NCBI GenBank assembly: GCA_016860845.1 | Contig: BOKF01000026.1 | Span: forward strand, 1 to 64,000 | From: Chloroflexota bacterium | GTDB lineage: Bacteria > Chloroflexota > Anaerolineae > 4572-78 > J111 | Length of the DNA: 64,000 nt | Direction: 5' to 3' | Part shown: piece after piece, positions 15,841 through 31,381 of the stretch | How positions within the stretch are numbered: position 1 is the first letter of the stretch | How the letters are laid out: each line of letters begins with the position of its first letter | Position numbers and translations under genes: made by a program | Notes under the pieces: model-generated | Told to the model about the DNA's origin: nothing | What the model saw: the letters and a program-made list of their open reading frames with translations, nothing else | Databases searched by the model: none

Positions 15841-16593
15841 TCAGCTAGACTCAAAGGCAAAAAGCGCCCCTTGCGCAATTCGGGTTGAATAGGCGCTTTG
15901 GTCCAAAGTCAAAAATACACCGTCTACCCCGCTGGCGCTGGCCCGAAATTCCCGCGCATGTTCTTCTGACCAGAAGAATAAGGAGTTGTTTCAGTAAGCG
16001 TGGATGATGTTCGGTTCGGTAAAAGTTTCCCAATTGATCTGCGGCTCGAAGACCAGGGGTTCAGCCTCCGGCTCAGTGATGCGAAACCTCAACTCACTAT
16101 CCATGACGATTTGGAGGGGTCGGGCGCAGTGGCCGCAGACAGTATTGATGACCACAGACAAAGATTCTTGGCGTAATCGCCCTTGCACGAAGGGCGTCGC
16201 AATAGCGTCCTCAGCTCAGGCGGCGTAGACCTGTTCGCCCGTACTAAAAGTCAGGTGATGCGGCGTCGGGTCAACGGTCACCGGATAGGCCCAGGCTACG
16301 GCACCCTGGGCATTGCGGACCAGAAAAACGAGATGCCGCTCAAGCTCATCAAGGATAACCTCTACTTGGGTGAGAGGCAAGCCTAACTTTTGGGCAATGA
16401 ACTCGGGGCGGATGGGTTCGCCAAGAGCTGGGAGTTCTCTGACCACAAAATAGCGGACCCGGTGATGGGCCTCCGTCATGAAACCAAGTCTCGTTTGAAA
16501 ATATTGAGGTGCTTGAGCTAAATGTTCCTGCCATGTCCGAGATGGGACTGGAATCATTTGATGTCCTCGCCCTAACAGGATAGTTTCATTCAT
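15841..16593 (-). CDS. MerB-like alkylmercury lyase family protein, candidate selenoprotein with two in-frame UGA codons
   Basis: Read through two UGA codons, the frame gives 250 residues: 125, UGA (16218-16216), 74, UGA (15993-15991), 49, then a UGA stop at 15843-15841. Residues after both UGAs continue the alkylmercury lyase fold. MerB uses C96, D99 and C159 to break carbon-mercury bonds. Here UGA126-A-E-D129 matches C96-A-L-D99, and UGA201-x4-F-F-x-S matches C159-x4-F-F-x-S. A CGHC pair lies at 153-156. An N-terminal winged-helix-like region (about 30-110) fits the family. After each UGA comes a hairpin with a G in the first two loop bases, 26 and 19 bases on. Selenocysteine is the best reading; an ordinary pseudogene is the alternative. 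Substrate need not be mercury. Starts within the stop of the upstream gene. Confidence 0.85.
15970..16000 (-). promoter_or_regulatory. SECIS-like hairpin after the second UGA
   Basis: In the mRNA, 12 bases after the UGA at 15993-15991, TTCTTCT-GGTC-AGAAGAA forms a 7-base-pair stem with a GGUC loop, occupying about 15961-15978. GGUC is, from memory, also the loop of the E. coli fdhF element. The UGA-to-loop distance of 19 fits the bacterial 16-37 range. Confidence 0.75.
16178..16196 (-). promoter_or_regulatory. SECIS-like hairpin after the first UGA
   Basis: In the mRNA, CGCCCTT-CGTGC-AAGGGCG forms a perfect 7-base-pair stem. Its loop starts 26 bases after the UGA and has G at loop position 2, as the bacterial SECIS consensus asks. 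Confidence 0.75.
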
Positions 16594-16877
16594 GGAACTA
16601 TCTCCTCTTTGAGTTGGTGGCTGGCCTCGGCCCCGTAATTCAACCCATAAATTTCCTTCAGTTGGGCGATACGTTGGAGAGTCTGCTCACTAAAGGGCGA
16701 TTTGTTCTCAAAAGCGTGCAACACAATCCCTTCCAGCAGGTCGCCCAGAGAAAGATCCAGATACTCAGCCAGCGCCTTGAGCACTTTGACCATCCTCTTT
16801 TCCATGCGCACCCCGGTCTGGACTCGTTCAACAATCAAGGAAGTGTCGGCAGACTGATTATTTTGTTCGGTCGCCAT
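16590..16877 (-). CDS. Small helical protein, cotranscribed with the MerB-like gene
   Basis: A 95-residue soluble protein, not assigned to a named family. The core RMEKRMVKVLKALAEYLDLS, residues about 24-43, then GDLLEGIVLHAFENK, looks like a ribbon-helix-helix or related small helical DNA- or protein-binding unit, but this is only a visual impression. Its stop overlaps the start of the MerB-like gene (ATGA), so the two are translationally coupled and probably act together, as regulator or partner subunit. It ends with an ordinary UGA stop, which shows UGA is not reassigned here. AAAGGA precedes the ATG. Confidence 0.85.
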   Translation of the reverse strand: MATEQNNQSADTSLIVERVQTGVRMEKRMVKVLKALAEYLDLSLGDLLEGIVLHAFENKSPFSEQTLQRIAQLKEIYGLNYGAEASHQLKEEIVP

Positions 16878-16914: not shown

Positions 16915-16959
16915 TTGTTACCTATGTACCATTATAACAAATAGATAGATCTGTGTCAA
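16915..16959 (-). promoter_or_regulatory. Consensus sigma70 promoter with overlapping inverted repeat
   Basis: On the minus strand TTGACA (16959-16954), 17 bases, TATAAT (16936-16931): a perfect consensus. TTGTTA and TAACAA arms (16940-16935 and 16920-16915) straddle the -10 and start point, a likely operator. It drives the 95-residue gene and the MerB-like gene. Confidence 0.85.
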
Positions 16960-17083: not shown

Positions 17084-19984
17084 TTACTTAACCTCTTTCC
17101 CCTCGTTATCCACGACCATCACCTGGCCAATTTTCTCCAACTGGGGCTTGACCACCTCAGCATCGCCGACCACGACGATAATGGGCCGCTCGGAGTCAAT
17201 GTAGTTGGCGGCGGCGGCGTGAGCTTCGCTGGCGCTGGCCCCCTCGATGTTTTGCAGGTAATCTTTCAGCTCTTCGATGGGCACGCCGGTCAGGTAGCGG
17301 GTGGCCAGGGCATTGGCAAAGTCGGAGGGCTGCTCGAGGGCCAGGGCAAAGCTGCCGATGAGCTGGTTCTTGGCGTCGGTCAGTTCCTGCTCGGAAATGG
17401 GTTCGGTGCGGATGCGCTTTAGCTCTTTCAAAATTTCCTGCACGGCGTCGGCGGCGTGGTCCTGGCTGACATCGCCGACCACACGGAAGGTGCTGACGTC
17501 ATTGGGCCGGCCAAAACGGCTGTAGACGCCGTAGGTGTAGCCTTTATCCTCCCGAAGATTGGTGTAGAGGCGCGAGGAAGAACCGCCGCCCAAGACCGCG
17601 TTGACCACTTCCAGGGCGTAGCGATCCGGGTTGCGGGCATCAATTCCCCGGTTGCCCACCTGGATGGTCGCCTGTTCGGAGGTGGGCCGATCTACCAGAT
17701 AGATGACCGAGGTATCGCCCAGCTCGGCTTCGGGATAGTTGAGGAAGTCCGGGACCTCACCCTGCTCCCAATCCCCAAAAACCCGTTCGGTCTCACTTTT
17801 GGCTTCCTCGGCGGTGATGTCGCCGACGATGACCAGCAGGGCGTTATTGGGTTTGTAATAGGTCTGGTGAAATTCAATCAGGTCGTCGCGGGTCAGCCTT
17901 TTGACCGTTTCCGGGTTGGTGATGAAGCCGTAAGGATGGCCGCCGTAGGCCAGGCGGCCAAATTGACGGTTGGCCATGCTGGCCGGGTTGACCTGATCCT
18001 GCTCCAAAAAGGTCAGGGTTTGAGTTTGGTCAACCTGGAACTCCTTTTCGGGAAAGGTCGAGTTGCGGGCCATATCGCTCAGCAGGTCAAAGGCCAGGGT
18101 CGCATCGGCGGCCAGGGCGTCCACCGAAACGGAAGTCCACTCCAGGGCGGCGCTGGAACCGACCGAGCCGCCGGCCGCTTCAATCGTTTCGGCTATTTCG
18201 GCGGCGGTGCGGGTCTGGGTGCCTTTGGTCAGCAGGTCGGCCATCAGGTCGGCCACGCCCTGTTTATCCGCCGGGACAGCGGCGTTGGAACCGCCCACGT
18301 TTAGCTGCAAGCGCAGTTTGGGCACTTCGGTTTGGGGGACGAAAATAACATTGAGACCGTTTTCGAGGGTAAAACGCTCGAAGGGCGGGAAGTTGCTCTC
18401 CGTGACCGGCAGGGCGGCCGGAACGGAGGTACGGCTGATAACGCCTTCGGGCAGGCCGGCCAGAACCTCGTCGCTTAATTCAAGGTCCAGCACTTCAGAG
18501 GCCGGTTCCGGGGTGGCTTCGCTCTGGACAGGTTCCGCTGGCTCGACCAGCAGGCCGGGGGAGTCGCTCAAGATTTCCTCCCCCTCTTTGAGGGTCAGTT
18601 GGATATTCAGCGGCTTGTCGCACAGATAGGTTTGGGCGACACGTTGAATATCATCCACCGTGACGGCTTGATACCGGGCCAGTTCCTCATCAATGGTATT
18701 GGGATCGCCAAAGGTCAGGACGGCGTCTTGCAGCCACTCGGCGGTGTTCAGGGCCGACTCGCGGAATGAGGCAATCGAACCAACCAGGGCTTGTTTCTTG
18801 ACCCGTTCCAACTCTGCCTCGGTCACGCCGCCGGTCATCACTTTCTCAAACTCGTCCCGGACCAGTGGGGGTATGGCGTCGAGGCTGTCGCCGCTGTTGG
18901 GCTGGGCGATGGCGTAAAGGATGCTGGCTCCCAGGTAATCGCTCAAGCCGACATAGGCGCTGGCGGCCTTGCCCTGCTGGATGATGTTTTGCTCAAAACG
19001 GCTGCTGTTGCCCCCGGCCAGGATGTCGGTCAACAGGCTGAGAGCATAGAAATCGGGTTCGCCCCGCGGCGGGCCGACGACCGTAGCCGCCCAGCGCGGC
19101 ACTTCGACCTGTGGGTCAATCAAGGTTTCCTCAGTGCCGATGTTGCAGCCGGTGGCGCTGTCGGTGCGCAGCAGCGGAAACTCGCCGGACAAGGGATACT
19201 GCTTGAGAATGGGGGTGACTTCCGGCCCGGCGGGAATGTCGGCAAAGTAAGCCTGGACCAGGATTTTGGTCTGCTCCACATCAATATCGCCGACAATGAC
19301 CAGCGTGGCGTTGTTGGGTTTGTAATAGGTGTCATGAAAGTCTCTTAATTCGGCCAACGCCGCCGCATTCAAATCCTCGACGCTGCCGATAACCGAGCGT
19401 TCATAAGGCACGTAGCCCTGCATCGGCTGGGTAAAGAGGCGGCGGTTGGCCGCGCCGTAGGGCCGGTTGGCCACGCGCTGGTTGAACTCTTCGACGACGA
19501 CATCCCGCTGTGTTTCAAAGACATCCTGGGTTACGCCCAACGAGGCCATGCGGTCGCTCTCCATCCACAGAACGCGGGGGAGCTGGTTGGCCGGAGCGAC
19601 TTCCCAATAGGCGGTTTTGTCATTAGCGGTGTAGGCATTATGGTTGGCCCCGATGGATTCCAGCAGCAGGTCCCACTGGCCGTTAGGAATATTGTCCGAA
19701 CCTTCAAACATCATGTGCTCAAACATGTGGGCGAAGCCAGAGCGCCCGGCGGGGTCATTAGCCCCCCCCACGTGATACCAGATGTCCACCGCTACCACCG
19801 GCGCGGAGTGGTCTTCGGCCAGGATAACGCGCAGGCCGTTGGGCAGGGTGTAGTCGGTCAGGGGGAGTTCGTAATCGGCAAAGTTGAGGGGTTTGGGATC
19901 CTGGGCATGGGTGGGGAGGGGAAAGGTCAGCAACAGCAAAAATAACAGCGATAATAACCGGGGCATTTTTGAGGGCATGCGCAT
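17084..19984 (-). CDS. Secreted M16-family zinc metallopeptidase, fused two-half type
   Basis: A 966-residue exported peptidase. A signal peptide covers about residues 1-27 (ending PTHAQ). The N-terminal half (about 40-480) has the inverted zinc motif HMFEH with the downstream glutamate in VVVEEFNQR, so it is active. The C-terminal half (about 545-960) repeats the fold but lacks HxxEH, as in processing-peptidase-like pairs where the second half only shapes the chamber. Short residues 485-530 are an acidic linker. GGAGAAGAG precedes the ATG. Substrates are probably small proteins or peptides outside the membrane. Confidence 0.93.
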   Translation of the reverse strand: MRMPSKMPRLLSLLFLLLLTFPLPTHAQDPKPLNFADYELPLTDYTLPNGLRVILAEDHSAPVVAVDIWYHVGGANDPAGRSGFAHMFEHMMFEGSDNIPNGQWDLLLESIGANHNAYTANDKTAYWEVAPANQLPRVLWMESDRMASLGVTQDVFETQRDVVVEEFNQRVANRPYGAANRRLFTQPMQGYVPYERSVIGSVEDLNAAALAELRDFHDTYYKPNNATLVIVGDIDVEQTKILVQAYFADIPAGPEVTPILKQYPLSGEFPLLRTDSATGCNIGTEETLIDPQVEVPRWAATVVGPPRGEPDFYALSLLTDILAGGNSSRFEQNIIQQGKAASAYVGLSDYLGASILYAIAQPNSGDSLDAIPPLVRDEFEKVMTGGVTEAELERVKKQALVGSIASFRESALNTAEWLQDAVLTFGDPNTIDEELARYQAVTVDDIQRVAQTYLCDKPLNIQLTLKEGEEILSDSPGLLVEPAEPVQSEATPEPASEVLDLELSDEVLAGLPEGVISRTSVPAALPVTESNFPPFERFTLENGLNVIFVPQTEVPKLRLQLNVGGSNAAVPADKQGVADLMADLLTKGTQTRTAAEIAETIEAAGGSVGSSAALEWTSVSVDALAADATLAFDLLSDMARNSTFPEKEFQVDQTQTLTFLEQDQVNPASMANRQFGRLAYGGHPYGFITNPETVKRLTRDDLIEFHQTYYKPNNALLVIVGDITAEEAKSETERVFGDWEQGEVPDFLNYPEAELGDTSVIYLVDRPTSEQATIQVGNRGIDARNPDRYALEVVNAVLGGGSSSRLYTNLREDKGYTYGVYSRFGRPNDVSTFRVVGDVSQDHAADAVQEILKELKRIRTEPISEQELTDAKNQLIGSFALALEQPSDFANALATRYLTGVPIEELKDYLQNIEGASASEAHAAAANYIDSERPIIVVVGDAEVVKPQLEKIGQVMVVDNEGKEVK

Positions 19985-24562: not shown

Positions 24563-27500
24563 TCATATTTGCGATCTTTTATCATGCGTTACTCCCATAT
24601 TTTCTAAAGGTAGCCAAATAACCATCACCGTGCCGGTTGGCCCGGTGGAGCCTACCCGAAGCTGGCCGCCATAAGTCTGCACAATGGTTTGGGCCATCAA
24701 CAGCCCCATGCCTAAGCCCCTGGCGTCTTCAGGTTTCTCAATAACTTCCAGGCCAATTTTTTCTTGTATCTGCGGGGAAAGTCCAGGGCCGGTATCAGCG
24801 ATGAATATTTCTACCCCGGCATTAGCTGCTTGCGTGCCAATAACAACCTCTCGCCTTTCACGCTGAGTCACCGCATCTACAGCGTTATCTACTAAAATAT
24901 CAAAAGCCCGTCGCAACCATTCCCGGCTAATCTTAACCGTAGCCGCGCCGGATAGTTGCAGGTCAATTTTCAGCCTGGCCGTTTTGTATGGCTCATTCTG
25001 CCACAATTGTTTGGCGCGCTCACCGATCAAATCATTGATTGTGACCGATTCGACGCCTTCTTCGGCGGTGAGAGGGGGGGTGAGGGGTTTTTCCAAAATT
25101 TTGCCGGCCAGCCGTTCGATGGTGGCCAGCCGCTCGTTGAGTTTGGGATATTGGCTGGAGGGATTTATCTCCTCTAAATTTTTAGCCAGAAGTTGTACCT
25201 GCTCGCGAATAGTCAGGGCATGTTTATCAATGGCATGCCGCCAGGTACTGGTGGCCATCCCCATCCAGGCCAGGGCAGTTCTGGTACCGACGAGTCCTTT
25301 GGTCCGTTTCAACTCTTCATACGTTTTTTTCAATTCCTCATACTGGCGCGCTCTATCAATGGCTACCGCTGCCTGGCTGGCCAAAGCTTCTAAAAAGATG
25401 ATCTGGCCCCCGTTAAACTGACGCGGCTCCCGGTCGTGAACATAAAGGACGCCAATGGCTTCGTCCTGGCAGACAAGAGGCGCGCCGAGCGATGAACGGT
25501 ATCCCTGCTCGAGAAAAGCCGGGTTAAAGTCAGAAACCTGTTGAGCGTCGAAAATAGCGACAGATTTTCGTTCATCCAAAATCTTCCGAGCCAGGCCCCC
25601 CTTTGAGCGAGCCTTGATTTCATACGGGTATAATGTTCCTCCTTCGTCAATTCTAAGCCCCTGGGTAAATTTTTCTTGCGGCGCATCCCATAATAAAACA
25701 CTAACGCCAGGGGTATTGGTCAATTTCATGGCCCCGGACATGATCAAGCTCAACACTTTATCAAGCTCCAGGGCGCCTGCCAACGAAACAGCAACATGTT
25801 GTAAAGTATTAACCTCCACCAAACGTTCAGCTAGCTGTTGATAAAGCTGGGCATTGTGGATAGCATTGGCCAATTGATCGGCCATCGTTTGGAGGGTAGC
25901 AATATCTTCATTCCGCCAGTCACCCGCTTTAATGCTTTGGACATCTAACACCCCAATCACCTGTTCACGGGCAATGAGAGGAAAAGTCATTTCGGCCTGG
26001 GTCAGGCGTATGTTAGGGATGTAGTAAGCATCCTGGCTAACATCCGGGGCAAAATGAGGCTGGCCCGCCCCGGCAACATAACCGACAATTCCCTCATGAC
26101 CGACCCTGAGCTTGTGATCCGGTTTTAACATCCGCTGGTCATCTTTGGGATAAGTTGCGCGCAGGACCGCATACTCGCCCTCGTTGTCTAACAAGAAGAC
26201 AGCCGCATGGTCGCAGTCGAAACGTTCAACGATGAGACGAACTGTTTCATGCAGGAGTTTGTCAATATCTAAGATGGCCGTGGCCCCGCGAGCAACCTGG
26301 GCGGCCGCGTCCAGCAGACGAGTACGCCGCTGCGTCTGCTCAAATAAACGGGCGTTCTCGATGGCAATCGCTGCCTGAGCCGCCAGGGACTCCAGAGTAC
26401 GCTGATCTTCCTCATCGAAAGCATTGCGCTCAGAGGCTTCAACATTGATCACCCCCATAATCTCAACACCGCGTTTTATCGGGACAGCCAATTCGGACAG
26501 CGTATCAGGGTCGTACTTTATGTAGTCATTATCCCCGGTGATGTCGCCGATGAGGCGGGTCTGTCCAGTCTTCACCGCTCTCCCCATAACGCCGATAGGC
26601 TCAGCGCCGTTTAGATCAATATTGCCGATAACTTTCTGGATGCCAGAAAAATGTTCCGGTGGGTATGCGGCTACCGATTTTAAATTGTTCCCGACCGTGA
26701 TGGCCAAGTTGCTGAAACGTGAAGTGTCAATGAGGCGTCGGGACTGTTCGGCAATGACCCCGAGAATCTCTTCCGAATTCAAGGAACTGGTTACCGCCCG
26801 CCCCGCCTCATAGAGGGTCTCCAGCGCTCTGGCTCGTTTTTGGACCCGCTCGTACAATTGGGCATTGCGAATGGCTACAGCCGCCTGGTTGGCAAATAAT
26901 TCAATATTGGTTAGCTCATCCTGGGTAAAAAGATGCGGTCGCCGGTAGTTGACGAACATCACCCCAACCTTGCGGTCTCCCGTAACCAGAGGCAAACCTA
27001 TTGATGAGACGATTTTCTCCCGCTTTGCAAATGGGCTATCCGTCAAGGGGTTCGTTGTCGTGTTCTTTGCTTCATACAAATCGTCCCGGGCCAGAACATT
27101 GTAAACTACCGACTGTTTCGCCACCTTGCCTAATTCAAGAACTTTTTCCGGGTAATTCACCCCAATCATCGCCGGCGGAAAGCCAAACTCGTCCCAATCC
27201 TGGTCATAGGTGTAGAGAGTCACCACATCGCAATCGAGAACATCACGCGTTCCCTGAACAATGGAATTCAGCGTGCTCTGCAGATCCTCCAGCACCGTCA
27301 CCCCGGCTACTACGTGGGCCGCATCATGGGCCTTGCTTACCTGGTCCAATAACTTGGCATTGCGCAAGGCCAGGGCCGCGTGGTTGGCAAAGATTTGCGC
27401 CGTCTCCTGCTCTTTTTCACTGAAGTTGCGGCGATGATTGTAGTTAACATAGAGGATACCCAGCTTCTCTTCACCCACCATTAAAGCAATTCCCTGGAAA

Positions 27501-30500
27501 CTGCGTGTTCCAATCTGCTTGAGAAGTTTAGAAGTAGGCCCACCCAAAAATCCGTATTGCTGCACGTCATTAATATCGGTAACGCCAACCCAACCCCGCT
27601 CCATGACCGTAAAAGCCGTTCCTCCCTGCCGAGGTCCTACTTTCTGAAACTCTTTCCACCGCTCCATGGGAATGCCAGCAGCGACCGACCTTTCCAGGTT
27701 AAACCGATCTTGAACAGGATCATAGGACCAGATGGCCGCCGAGTCCGCCTGTAGCACCTCTCGGGCGCTGCGGGTGATTTGCTCCAGAACCTCTGGCAGT
27801 CCAGCGACTCCGGCCAGGGTCTCAGCAGCCTGGCGCATGTGGTCCAGCTCTTTTATCCGTCGAGCGCTGTCGTAAGCAATGGCCGCCTGATTAACATAAA
27901 GCCGCATGGCGTCAATCTCATCCTCTGAGAAGCGGCAGGGCTGATCATAATCAACCCACATCACCCCAATAACTTTATCCTCCAGAGAGACGGGCAAGCC
28001 TAACGCCGCGCCAATACCCCGCTCAAAGACACTCGGATTGACTCGATCTCGCTGCTGGCGGGTGTCCTCGATCACCTCGATTTGGCCGCTGCGCATGATC
28101 CGCATAGATAGTCCAGCGGATCGCACCATACTATTCAAGTCAAACCGTTTATTGATCCCGGCGGTTACTAATTCTCGAACCTCACCCACTTGGTCAATCA
28201 AGACCAAACTGGCCCCACAAGCATTTGTAGCTACATACACCTGTTCGACAATATCTTGTAACACCAATTCAGGGTCTCGCGATGAGACCAGCGCATTGCT
28301 GGCTTCGTAGAAGGAACGAATTCTTTTCCGGGCGGCCTCGGCTGCTTGAAACAATTCAGCGCCTTCAATAGCTACCACCACGGCGTCGGCAAAGAGTTGG
28401 AGAATCCATTCGTCTTCTTGGGTAAACCCCACCGTTGGCCCGGCCTGTCCATGGCGGTCTTTTTTGTTATCTGCCTTCAATAAACCAATCAACCTGTCCG
28501 GGTGTTCGCCCCTCTGTTTCAATGGAATTGCCAGTACGGAATAGCAATGTTCAGAAGGGGTATGATTGGGTTCCTCTTTCCGTATGGCAAAGTGGCCGGT
28601 GAGGCTATCTCCATGCGCATTAAACAGCCTACCTTCACTGGCAATATGGCCGGTTAGGCCGCTACCAGGACCGCTGCAAATGGCAAATGCTTTACCCTTT
28701 TCAAAGCATCCTGCTCGATGCCCGTAGCTGGCTTCGAGACTAAGGAAATCAGGACGTTTGACTAAAAAGATGGCGCAGACTTCCGCCTCCAGAATCTCGG
28801 CAGCGTACCGGGTGATAAGGTTTAGCCTTTCATCCAACGGCATAGTACCCAGGCTGCCCATCATTTCGCTGCTGGCCTGAGAAAGCCTGGCTAATCGCCT
28901 GAGTTTATCGGCATCTCTGCTCGTCAATGCGGCATTCTCCACGGCCACAGCCGCCAGATTGCCAAAATGCGCCAGCAGGTCTAAATCTTCCTGGCCAAAA
29001 GTTCTACCTTTAACCGTATCGTGAACGACCAGAACCCCCCAAATTTTATCTTCCCAGGTAATGGGTACCCCGGCCACGGCTGTAAAATTGTAAGAGTCAT
29101 ATTGTCGCAGCCGTTGCGGCCAATCTCGATAGTCAGACACCGCTTGAGGAGTTTTGGCGGCTATAACCCGCCCGACAACACCCTCTTCTACACTCAAATA
29201 TGTCCCTACAGAATCTTCAGGCAGATGTGACAGGGCAACCACCTTAACTCGCCGGCCCGACTCGTCCAGCAAGTAGAGTCCCCCTCCTTTGGCTTGCAAA
29301 AGTTCCACGGCTCGCTCTAAGATAGCCCTGACCAACTCCGGCATCTGACGACGACTGGTAATGTCAAGAGAGGTCCGGTGTAAGGTCTCCAAAGCCAAGG
29401 CTCGATGAGAGGTTTGTTGAAACAACCGCACATTCTCGATAGCAATGGCGGCCTGGTTAGCCATCAGGGAAAGAATTTGTAAGTCATCCTTGTCAAAGAC
29501 GTACCGATCCCGCTTGCTGTGTACATCCAAAGTACCGATAATGTTGCCCCCCACCTGGAGAGGTGTACTCATAATCGCCAGCCATCCTTCGTCATCTGCG
29601 GCCGGGTTATAAAAGCGGGAGTCATTCGGAATATCGTTGGCGATGATAGGTTCACCCATCTTGACCACGCGCCCGGCAATGCTACTCCCCACCACATCAC
29701 GAGTACCTTCGACAGCCTTCTGGCTCAGTCCATAAGTTCCCTTGAACGTCAAGTGCTCTTTTTCATCATCCAAAAGCAGAATACCCCCCGCATCTGCCCC
29801 TAATAACTCCGCCGCCAACCGGGAGATTAAGTTAAGCAGGTTTGGTAGGTTCAGCTCTGATTGGATTTCCTGAGTGATCTGGTAAAGGGCCAAAAGCTGC
29901 TCAGCCAGCCAATCCGAACGGTCCCTCTCCTGGGCTACATCCTTATACAGCCGCGCATTTTCAACGGCCACCGCCACCTGAGCGGCAAAAATGCGGCATT
30001 GTTCCACTTCTTCATCCGTAAAAGTACGCTGATGACCAATCCCCTCCAAGCTAAAAGAGCCTAACACCCGTCCCTTATTCACCACCGGCACAATCAAGAT
30101 AGAGTGGATGTCGAATTGGCGAAAGATATCTTGAACGGGTCCCAGTGACGGCTCATGGACTGCATCAGCCAACACAAGGGGTTCTTGAGACCGGATTAAA
30201 TCTTCCTCCGCCTGAACACCTCGTACCGGAATTTCTAAACCGAGCGTCCCCAAAGCCGGGTACTCAGCCGCTACCCGGCCCCGCGCGCGGTCCGGCTCCT
30301 CGAAAAGTACCATGCCGCTATGCTCGACCCCAAAGAGTCCAACGGCCGCCCGGCACGTCGCTTCTAGAATCTTGTCCAATTCAAGGAGGGAATTGATCGC
30401 CGTCGAAACCTCCTGGATAGCTTGAAGGTTAGAAGCTCGTTGCTCCGCCGTTCGGGTTGCTTCCCGCTCCTTATCCCTGAGACGCGTATGCTCGATGGCA

Positions 30501-31381
30501 GCCGCCGCTTGAGCCGCAAACAGAGCCAGGGGCCGTAATTCCGCTTTTGCAATCGGTCGCTGGCTGTTCTTGTTATCTATGGATAATTTGCCGATGACTT
30601 CGCCCCGCAAAATCAACGGCACACAGGCCCATTGATTCACCCCTTCTCCGGCTAGCTCCCGTTCATAAGGCAATGGCTGCCCATCCTCGCGTTCGAACAG
30701 GTGGGGACGAGGATCAGCCAGCACTATTTGCATCTGCTGGTCTGTAGCAACCGGGCGGGTATGCCCCACAAATTCTGTGCCTATGTCTACCTGCGCCGCT
30801 CCCCACATCATCTGGCGATCCTCAGATAACAGATAGAGACCCACCCGGTCAAAGCCAATAGCCTGCACGCCCCGTAGAATAACCTCCAAGACTTCCGGCA
30901 AACTCCGTCCACTCAACAGAGCGGTGTTGGTAGCCATCAACTGCTCCAATATCTGCTTTTCGCGGGCAGCACTTTTCAGGCGGCTGTGTTCAGCCCCTGT
31001 TTGGATCAACATGCCCAATTCCTCCAAATTGAGCGGCTTGGCCAGGTAGCGATAAGCGCCCGCGCGCAGGGCCTCCAGCCCTGACTTCATGCCCCAACCG
31101 GTGAAGATAATCACTTCTATCTGGGGGTAGCGAGCCTTGATTTTCGTCGTCAACGTTACCCCTGACGGCTCTGGGTCCTGGCCGGGCGTGGGGGTCAGCA
31201 AATCGTCAATCAACGCCACATCGTAGTTGCCGCGTACTCGCCCAAGCCGGTCCAGCGCCGCCTGAGCATCGGCCGCCGTATCCACCTCATAATGGTAAAC
31301 TTGGCGGAGGTGCTTGGCCAGGGGTTCACGCACACTGATTTCATCATCTACCAAAAGCAATCGTAATGCTTGTTCAGTCAC
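24563..31381 (-). CDS. Giant sensor kinase: receiver, about eleven GAF domains, histidine kinase
   Basis: A 2272-residue cytoplasmic protein, one of the largest of its type. Receiver at about residues 1-125 (LVDDE, D in ALIDD, K in LAKPLN). About eleven GAF domains follow, at roughly 150, 325, 500, 675, 850, 1055, 1225, 1390, 1565, 1735 and 1905, each ending in FA-Q-AA-AIE-A-LY-like helices that can pass signals on. The kinase (about 2065-2260) has a variant H-box WMGMATSTWRHAIDKHALTI, N-box DILVDNAVDAV, and G-boxes ADTGPGLSP and GLGMGL. No membrane helix. Start overlaps the stop of the S1 kinase gene (ATGA), so they are coupled. The linker PLTPPLTAEEG near 2110 may be repeat-derived. Confidence 0.93.
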   Translation of the reverse strand: MTEQALRLLLVDDEISVREPLAKHLRQVYHYEVDTAADAQAALDRLGRVRGNYDVALIDDLLTPTPGQDPEPSGVTLTTKIKARYPQIEVIIFTGWGMKSGLEALRAGAYRYLAKPLNLEELGMLIQTGAEHSRLKSAAREKQILEQLMATNTALLSGRSLPEVLEVILRGVQAIGFDRVGLYLLSEDRQMMWGAAQVDIGTEFVGHTRPVATDQQMQIVLADPRPHLFEREDGQPLPYERELAGEGVNQWACVPLILRGEVIGKLSIDNKNSQRPIAKAELRPLALFAAQAAAAIEHTRLRDKEREATRTAEQRASNLQAIQEVSTAINSLLELDKILEATCRAAVGLFGVEHSGMVLFEEPDRARGRVAAEYPALGTLGLEIPVRGVQAEEDLIRSQEPLVLADAVHEPSLGPVQDIFRQFDIHSILIVPVVNKGRVLGSFSLEGIGHQRTFTDEEVEQCRIFAAQVAVAVENARLYKDVAQERDRSDWLAEQLLALYQITQEIQSELNLPNLLNLISRLAAELLGADAGGILLLDDEKEHLTFKGTYGLSQKAVEGTRDVVGSSIAGRVVKMGEPIIANDIPNDSRFYNPAADDEGWLAIMSTPLQVGGNIIGTLDVHSKRDRYVFDKDDLQILSLMANQAAIAIENVRLFQQTSHRALALETLHRTSLDITSRRQMPELVRAILERAVELLQAKGGGLYLLDESGRRVKVVALSHLPEDSVGTYLSVEEGVVGRVIAAKTPQAVSDYRDWPQRLRQYDSYNFTAVAGVPITWEDKIWGVLVVHDTVKGRTFGQEDLDLLAHFGNLAAVAVENAALTSRDADKLRRLARLSQASSEMMGSLGTMPLDERLNLITRYAAEILEAEVCAIFLVKRPDFLSLEASYGHRAGCFEKGKAFAICSGPGSGLTGHIASEGRLFNAHGDSLTGHFAIRKEEPNHTPSEHCYSVLAIPLKQRGEHPDRLIGLLKADNKKDRHGQAGPTVGFTQEDEWILQLFADAVVVAIEGAELFQAAEAARKRIRSFYEASNALVSSRDPELVLQDIVEQVYVATNACGASLVLIDQVGEVRELVTAGINKRFDLNSMVRSAGLSMRIMRSGQIEVIEDTRQQRDRVNPSVFERGIGAALGLPVSLEDKVIGVMWVDYDQPCRFSEDEIDAMRLYVNQAAIAYDSARRIKELDHMRQAAETLAGVAGLPEVLEQITRSAREVLQADSAAIWSYDPVQDRFNLERSVAAGIPMERWKEFQKVGPRQGGTAFTVMERGWVGVTDINDVQQYGFLGGPTSKLLKQIGTRSFQGIALMVGEEKLGILYVNYNHRRNFSEKEQETAQIFANHAALALRNAKLLDQVSKAHDAAHVVAGVTVLEDLQSTLNSIVQGTRDVLDCDVVTLYTYDQDWDEFGFPPAMIGVNYPEKVLELGKVAKQSVVYNVLARDDLYEAKNTTTNPLTDSPFAKREKIVSSIGLPLVTGDRKVGVMFVNYRRPHLFTQDELTNIELFANQAAVAIRNAQLYERVQKRARALETLYEAGRAVTSSLNSEEILGVIAEQSRRLIDTSRFSNLAITVGNNLKSVAAYPPEHFSGIQKVIGNIDLNGAEPIGVMGRAVKTGQTRLIGDITGDNDYIKYDPDTLSELAVPIKRGVEIMGVINVEASERNAFDEEDQRTLESLAAQAAIAIENARLFEQTQRRTRLLDAAAQVARGATAILDIDKLLHETVRLIVERFDCDHAAVFLLDNEGEYAVLRATYPKDDQRMLKPDHKLRVGHEGIVGYVAGAGQPHFAPDVSQDAYYIPNIRLTQAEMTFPLIAREQVIGVLDVQSIKAGDWRNEDIATLQTMADQLANAIHNAQLYQQLAERLVEVNTLQHVAVSLAGALELDKVLSLIMSGAMKLTNTPGVSVLLWDAPQEKFTQGLRIDEGGTLYPYEIKARSKGGLARKILDERKSVAIFDAQQVSDFNPAFLEQGYRSSLGAPLVCQDEAIGVLYVHDREPRQFNGGQIIFLEALASQAAVAIDRARQYEELKKTYEELKRTKGLVGTRTALAWMGMATSTWRHAIDKHALTIREQVQLLAKNLEEINPSSQYPKLNERLATIERLAGKILEKPLTPPLTAEEGVESVTINDLIGERAKQLWQNEPYKTARLKIDLQLSGAATVKISREWLRRAFDILVDNAVDAVTQRERREVVIGTQAANAGVEIFIADTGPGLSPQIQEKIGLEVIEKPEDARGLGMGLLMAQTIVQTYGGQLRVGSTGPTGTVMVIWLPLENMGVTHDKRSQI

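Follow-up and report, generated by a model that had tools for sequence, protein, structure and literature searches.

The window, that is, the whole stretch of 64,000 nt analysed from contig BOKF01000026.1 of a Chloroflexota bacterium, carries on its minus strand a gene of the MerB (alkylmercury lyase) superfamily at positions 15841..16593. The frame of 250 codons starts with ATG at 16591-16593 and ends with TGA at 15841-15843, and has two further in-frame TGA codons on the same strand, codon 126 (16216..16218) and codon 201 (15991..15993), both predicted here to encode selenocysteine (Sec). When read with the standard code, the protein stops at 125 residues. The read-through protein matches Pfam MerB (PF03243) over residues 106-232 with 52.6 bits, above the cut-off of 27, and is 42-61% identical to 32 relatives in alignment A1 (the nearly identical L001 aside) on both sides of each TGA. 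The frame, its two UGA codons and the homology flanking each, all described in an earlier note on this DNA, were thus seen in the translation, the Pfam match and the alignment. In the alignment of the family profile with MerB of structure 1s6l, where MerB residue numbers were counted by hand, codon 126 falls on C96, codon 129 on D99, codon 153 on C117, and codon 201 on C159. The spacings U126-x2-D129 and U201-x4-FF-x-S, on which the note had based its assignment of the catalytic positions, are present. Among 81 aligned rows (80 loci and the window, which are related, so that row counts are not independent), Asp is found at codon 129 (16207..16209, minus strand) in all 81 and Cys at codon 153 (16135..16137, minus strand) in 80, and Cys156 is kept in 76. 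The residues preceding codons 126 and 201 in the window protein are Ala and Tyr, respectively. A search of solved structures with the family profile matched MerB, and the solved relatives are mercury lyases; the search with the single protein sequence gave no match. The protein is predicted to have the MerB fold.

The 80 loci are the best of 95 stretches encoding a relative, which were recognized among 128 matches in a scan of genome contigs with six search patterns, none of them covering codon 126 or 201. Codons 126 and 201 are TGA/TGA in 78 of the 80 loci and TGC/TGA in the other two (L021 and L071), so TGA occupies the second site in all 80. A pair of stops recovered in this way, with patterns that avoid both codons, is beyond what random nonsense mutation would leave, as had been argued from the window. 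Further stops within the aligned stretch are absent from 76 of the 78 TGA/TGA loci and present in L029 and L078; when frame-destroying changes were looked for across all loci, 78 of 80 had no extra damage. The nearest relative, L001 (Anaerolineales H5_CFX7), has a protein identity of 95% to the window, and across the MerB-like and the next gene the DNA identity is about 92%. Between the window and L001 the proportion of replacing differences (pN) is lower than that of silent ones (pS) in all three segments delimited by the TGA codons, at 0.028 vs 0.111, 0.006 vs 0.039, and 0.009 vs 0.061, with small counts (2 silent and 1 replacing change) in each of the two segments behind a TGA. Among 298 genomes of the class of L001, 17 have a match, nine full-length and all with two TGA codons, and eight weak or partial; the nine overlap in part with genes of the 80-locus set. 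On viral contigs eight stretches fit a pattern, and none encodes a relative.

A predicted selenocysteine insertion sequence (SECIS) hairpin lies directly 3' of each UGA. The first, at 16178..16196 of the minus strand, was obtained from single-sequence and alignment folds, the latter computed from 79 rows with the Cys variants L021 and L071 excluded, and from codon constraint. Five of its six consensus pairs are standard in 79/79 rows and the outermost in 69/79, and one pair shows a two-sided change from C-G to T-A in four of the 79 rows. The Cys variant L021 is without this hairpin, and its UGA sister L018 retains it. The second, at 15961..15978 of the minus strand, has a stem of seven pairs and a GGUC loop, resembling the element of E. 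coli fdhF; it was predicted from the alignment fold and codon constraint, and its pairs are standard in 81/81 rows with G-U wobble variation only. When 63 positions with a residue common to at least 85% of rows were ranked by codon constraint, the ten most codon-fixed (134-138, 206, 207, and 209-211) were all within the two hairpins, with codon fixation of 0.93-1.00, while the next position in rank reached 0.79. Phe206 and Phe207 are encoded by TTC in 162 of 162 cases, compared with 552 of 940 Phe codons elsewhere in the genes; the fetch pattern FFWSEEHA biases toward those residues, not toward particular codons. No Rfam family matched above its gathering score in the window, and two matches in the gene region are at chance level; Rfam is not known to include a family for bacterial SECIS.

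Sec machinery was checked in the genomes of ten loci (L001, L010, L012, L015, L019, L030, L036, L042, L050, and L059). SelA, SelB, and SelD are above cut-off in all ten, and in 1, 2, and 2 of 14 control genomes, respectively. The cut-off of the Rfam tRNA-Sec model is loose, being passed by 10/10 genomes but also by 5/14 controls, and therefore naming by ARAGORN was used, which gave a tRNA-Sec with anticodon tca in nine of the ten. All of selA, selB, selC, and selD are thus found in the nearest genome and eight others, and a lack of the machinery, which was to speak against Sec, was not found there. The best SelD match contains a TGA in each of the ten genomes, one match being partial. SelA presence says little in the class of L001, because it is above cut-off in 246 of the 298 genomes; of the nine genomes with a full-length double-TGA relative, eight reach E 7.1e-156 or better with SelA. 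There is no tRNA gene within the 64-kb window.

On balance, the gene is predicted to make a double-selenocysteine enzyme of the MerB family, the probable reaction of which is cleavage of a carbon-metal bond, for example in methylmercury. The double-selenocysteine protein proposed in the earlier note is supported by TGA/TGA in 78 of 80 loci, Cys126 in the other two, two constrained hairpins and the Sec machinery. In MerB, according to the parts of PMC4525700 and PMC8261052 covered, Cys96 and Cys159 are the metal ligands and Asp99 takes part in proton transfer. In the predicted protein, SelB would read each UGA as Sec, and the hairpin that follows the codon would serve as its SECIS element. By analogy with MerB, the selenolates of Sec126 and Sec201 would bind the metal of R-Hg+ or of another soft organometal, Asp129 would protonate the leaving carbon as Asp99 does, and the metal would end up between two selenium atoms. 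The protein might hold a Se-Se or Se-Hg centre, as the earlier note suggested. More tentatively, and with somewhat less than even confidence, the family could represent a branch of organometal detoxification that is widespread and does without MerA. Methylmercury or some related organometal would there be cleaved at a Se-metal-Se centre, and the metal passed on or locked away as a selenium complex.

Several observations weigh against this enzyme. A Se-Hg-Se product would be very stable and would hinder turnover. The protein scores 46.4 bits against the NCBI MerB cut-off of 193. MerA is above its cut-off in none of the ten genomes, where flavoproteins lie just below (best 402 vs 454 bits), and therefore the usual Hg(II) acceptor was not seen. 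By eye, neither merA, merT, nor merP was recognized in the starts of the nearest frames, no scan with mer models having been made, and the MerR-like neighbours have 0-2 cysteines and the MarR-like ones none, so without a metal-binding cysteine set. The Cys variant L071 retains the first hairpin, and no two-sided pair change occurs in the second hairpin in 81 rows. In the L042 genome no tRNA-Sec was found, the best match being named tRNA-Cys by ARAGORN, and in G012, the ninth genome with a full-length double-TGA relative, the SelA match is weak (E 1.5e-43).

The high stability expected of the product and the absence of a MerA partner from sight make a trap with the MerB fold a serious rival, although clearly a less probable one. 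Its selenium pair would bind a soft metal, be it methylmercury, Hg(II), or some other, in a single event without turnover, and the metal complex would then be stored, degraded, or converted to selenide. The prediction of selenium as both ligands of the metal site, ten genomes with no MerA above cut-off and a gene that by eye has no mer neighbours all fit a trap, but the proton-relay Asp, kept in 81/81 rows, would be needless for it. Still less probable is a redox selenoenzyme built on the MerB fold, with a diselenide or selenenyl-sulfide among Sec126, Sec201, and perhaps Cys153 and Cys156. The conservation of the two cysteines (80 and 76 of 81 rows) would agree with this, as would the view, given in the part of PMC13188914 covered, that selenoproteins are mostly redox enzymes; retention of the catalytic Asp and of the MerB fold, and the mercury-lyase function of the solved relatives, argue against it. 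That the protein belongs, as a diverged component in the role of SaoL, to the Sec-assisted organometallic (SAO) system is very unlikely, as its match to the SaoL model NF040728, itself describing a MerB-like selenoprotein, has 36.1 bits and falls below the cut-off of 140, and SaoL has one Sec in the motif CU, while here there are two Sec without CU. Reading of UGA as Trp or a pseudogene is hardly credible, and both were rejected together with chance, since, although Trp occupies both sites in 51 of 153 relatives listed from the protein catalogue, 36 of the 80 genes themselves terminate in TGA, the same two stops recur in 78/80 loci, the UGA sites alone align with Cys and are replaced by Cys in two loci, and hairpins and Sec machinery are present.

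The gene product is therefore filed, from its sequence, as a MerB-superfamily member and predicted selenoprotein that is neither MerB proper nor SaoL, because it lies below the cut-offs of both. Besides SaoL, the NCBIfam MerB models NF009710 (46.4 vs 193 bits) and NF033555 (39.1 vs 200 bits) were failed, and the Cys96-Asp99-Cys159 set of MerB proper is replaced by Sec codon, Asp, and Sec codon. It differs from MerB (PF03243; 1s6l, 3f0o, and 3f2f) and MerB2 (5c17) in having UGA at both catalytic Cys positions and an N-terminal extension, as well as in the lack of a mer operon recognizable by eye and of MerA above cut-off in the ten genomes. SaoL of the SAO system is likewise MerB-like with a predicted Sec (PMC13188914, as far as covered), but the two Sec are here 75 codons apart. 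Two Sec per chain are also known from other selenoproteins, an example being the UxxU metal-binding protein NF041115; these belong to other families and have both Sec in one short motif, whereas here the two are predicted at different catalytic positions, and a hairpin follows each of them. In the part of PMC13188914 covered, a 2026 review of 119 prokaryotic selenoprotein families, one two-Sec entry carries the name putative mercuric reductase, and the single MerB entry is SaoL, with one Sec in the motif CU; a similar SaoL-type entry is in the part of PMC9312934 covered. A term search for MerB gave nothing in the main texts of PMC2398784, PMC5029168, and PMC12013277. The novelty presumed in the earlier note holds in that a MerB-family protein with two Sec was not found in the literature searched (main texts and parts of reviews, with the primary SaoL literature outside this scope), but not for Sec in a MerB-like protein as such, as the one-Sec SaoL is already published.

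The 153 catalogued proteins come from two lists, one with the best 120 of 216 matches and the other with the best 120 of 313. The last codon read is 125 in 58 of them and 200 in 34. Residues at 126/201 are Trp/Trp in 51, Cys/none in 36, Trp/none in 3, none in 58, Ser/Cys in 2, and others in 3, and none of the 153 has Cys at both sites. Trp/Trp is what gene calling with UGA as Trp would yield, these being protein records alone. No name among the listed matches mentions selenium. When 84 rows were placed in a quick maximum-likelihood tree, three changes of state were needed, each next to UGA/UGA rows. Two of them exchange UGA and Cys at codon 126, and the third leads to the Ser/Cys pair P0010 and P0017 (P0033 excluded). 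This pair, which has Ser in place of the first UGA and Cys in place of the second, forms a single branch inside the double-UGA family. The tree, which is unrooted, points to double UGA as the older of the states in the family. According to phylum labels, the 80 loci include Chloroflexota (25), Acidobacteriota (14), Thermodesulfobacteriota (14), Myxococcota (12, counted from records titled 'Deltaproteobacteria'), Pseudomonadota (2), and five phyla with one locus each, with 8 loci unplaced, hence about ten phyla overall; binning errors in metagenome-assembled genomes are possible. A distant MerB relative with 27% identity, L100:1-1601 (G196:C166:9400-11000), has the Cys of a C-x2-D motif at its first site; at the second, a single in-frame TGA precedes FF by four residues. 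This spacing fits codon 201, while the tblastn placement is one residue off. Sec at the second site may recur outside the double-UGA family.

Mercury has a higher affinity for selenium than for sulfur. If the reading as a double-Sec enzyme is true, selenium at both metal positions of MerB would be a natural test of its contribution to organometal chemistry. The family also bears on MerB-type function in genomes without MerA, posed as an open question in the part of PMC8261052 covered, where 906 of 1795 merB genomes are without MerA. In the catalogue entries listed, the protein is cut short at one of the two UGA codons or carries Trp there, so that surveys of methylmercury breakdown would overlook the family or give it a wrong name.

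Upstream of the MerB-like gene, at 16590..16877 of the minus strand, is a gene for 95 residues, the stop of which overlaps the MerB-like start by four bases. It is weakly ribbon-helix-helix-like (Pfam RHH_4, 17.7 bits, below the cut-off of 25) and likely a regulator, with homologues at three of the 80 loci. A promoter-like TTGACA-17-TATAAT sequence (16931..16959, minus strand), matching the consensus at 12/12 positions and kept in L001, was recognized by consensus match only. Between this site and the small upstream gene, L001 (L001:5480-6034) has about 148 bases absent from the window, with similar inverted ends resembling a small mobile repeat. Neighbours in front, named by eye, are MerR-like at six loci and MarR-like at five. 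A distant Cys-type MerB in an Anaerolineae-class genome, L101:1-1601 (G181:C140:193500-195100), has as neighbours, named by eye, a frame that is MerR-like and another with a MerA-like start, an arrangement resembling an ordinary mer operon, in contrast to the double-UGA gene. In the nearest genome, L102 (G001:C5:178500-182500) encodes a lipoamide-dehydrogenase-like flavoprotein with 354 bits to the MerA model, below the cut-off, about 140 bases from the tRNA-Sec gene and on the opposite strand. Elsewhere in the window, a 966-residue frame at 17084-19984, by eye zinc-peptidase-like, has an internal repeat of 77% over 79 bases, 1467 apart, and a 2272-residue frame at 24563-31381 by eye resembles a receiver domain followed by numerous repeated sensor domains and ending in a kinase-like part.
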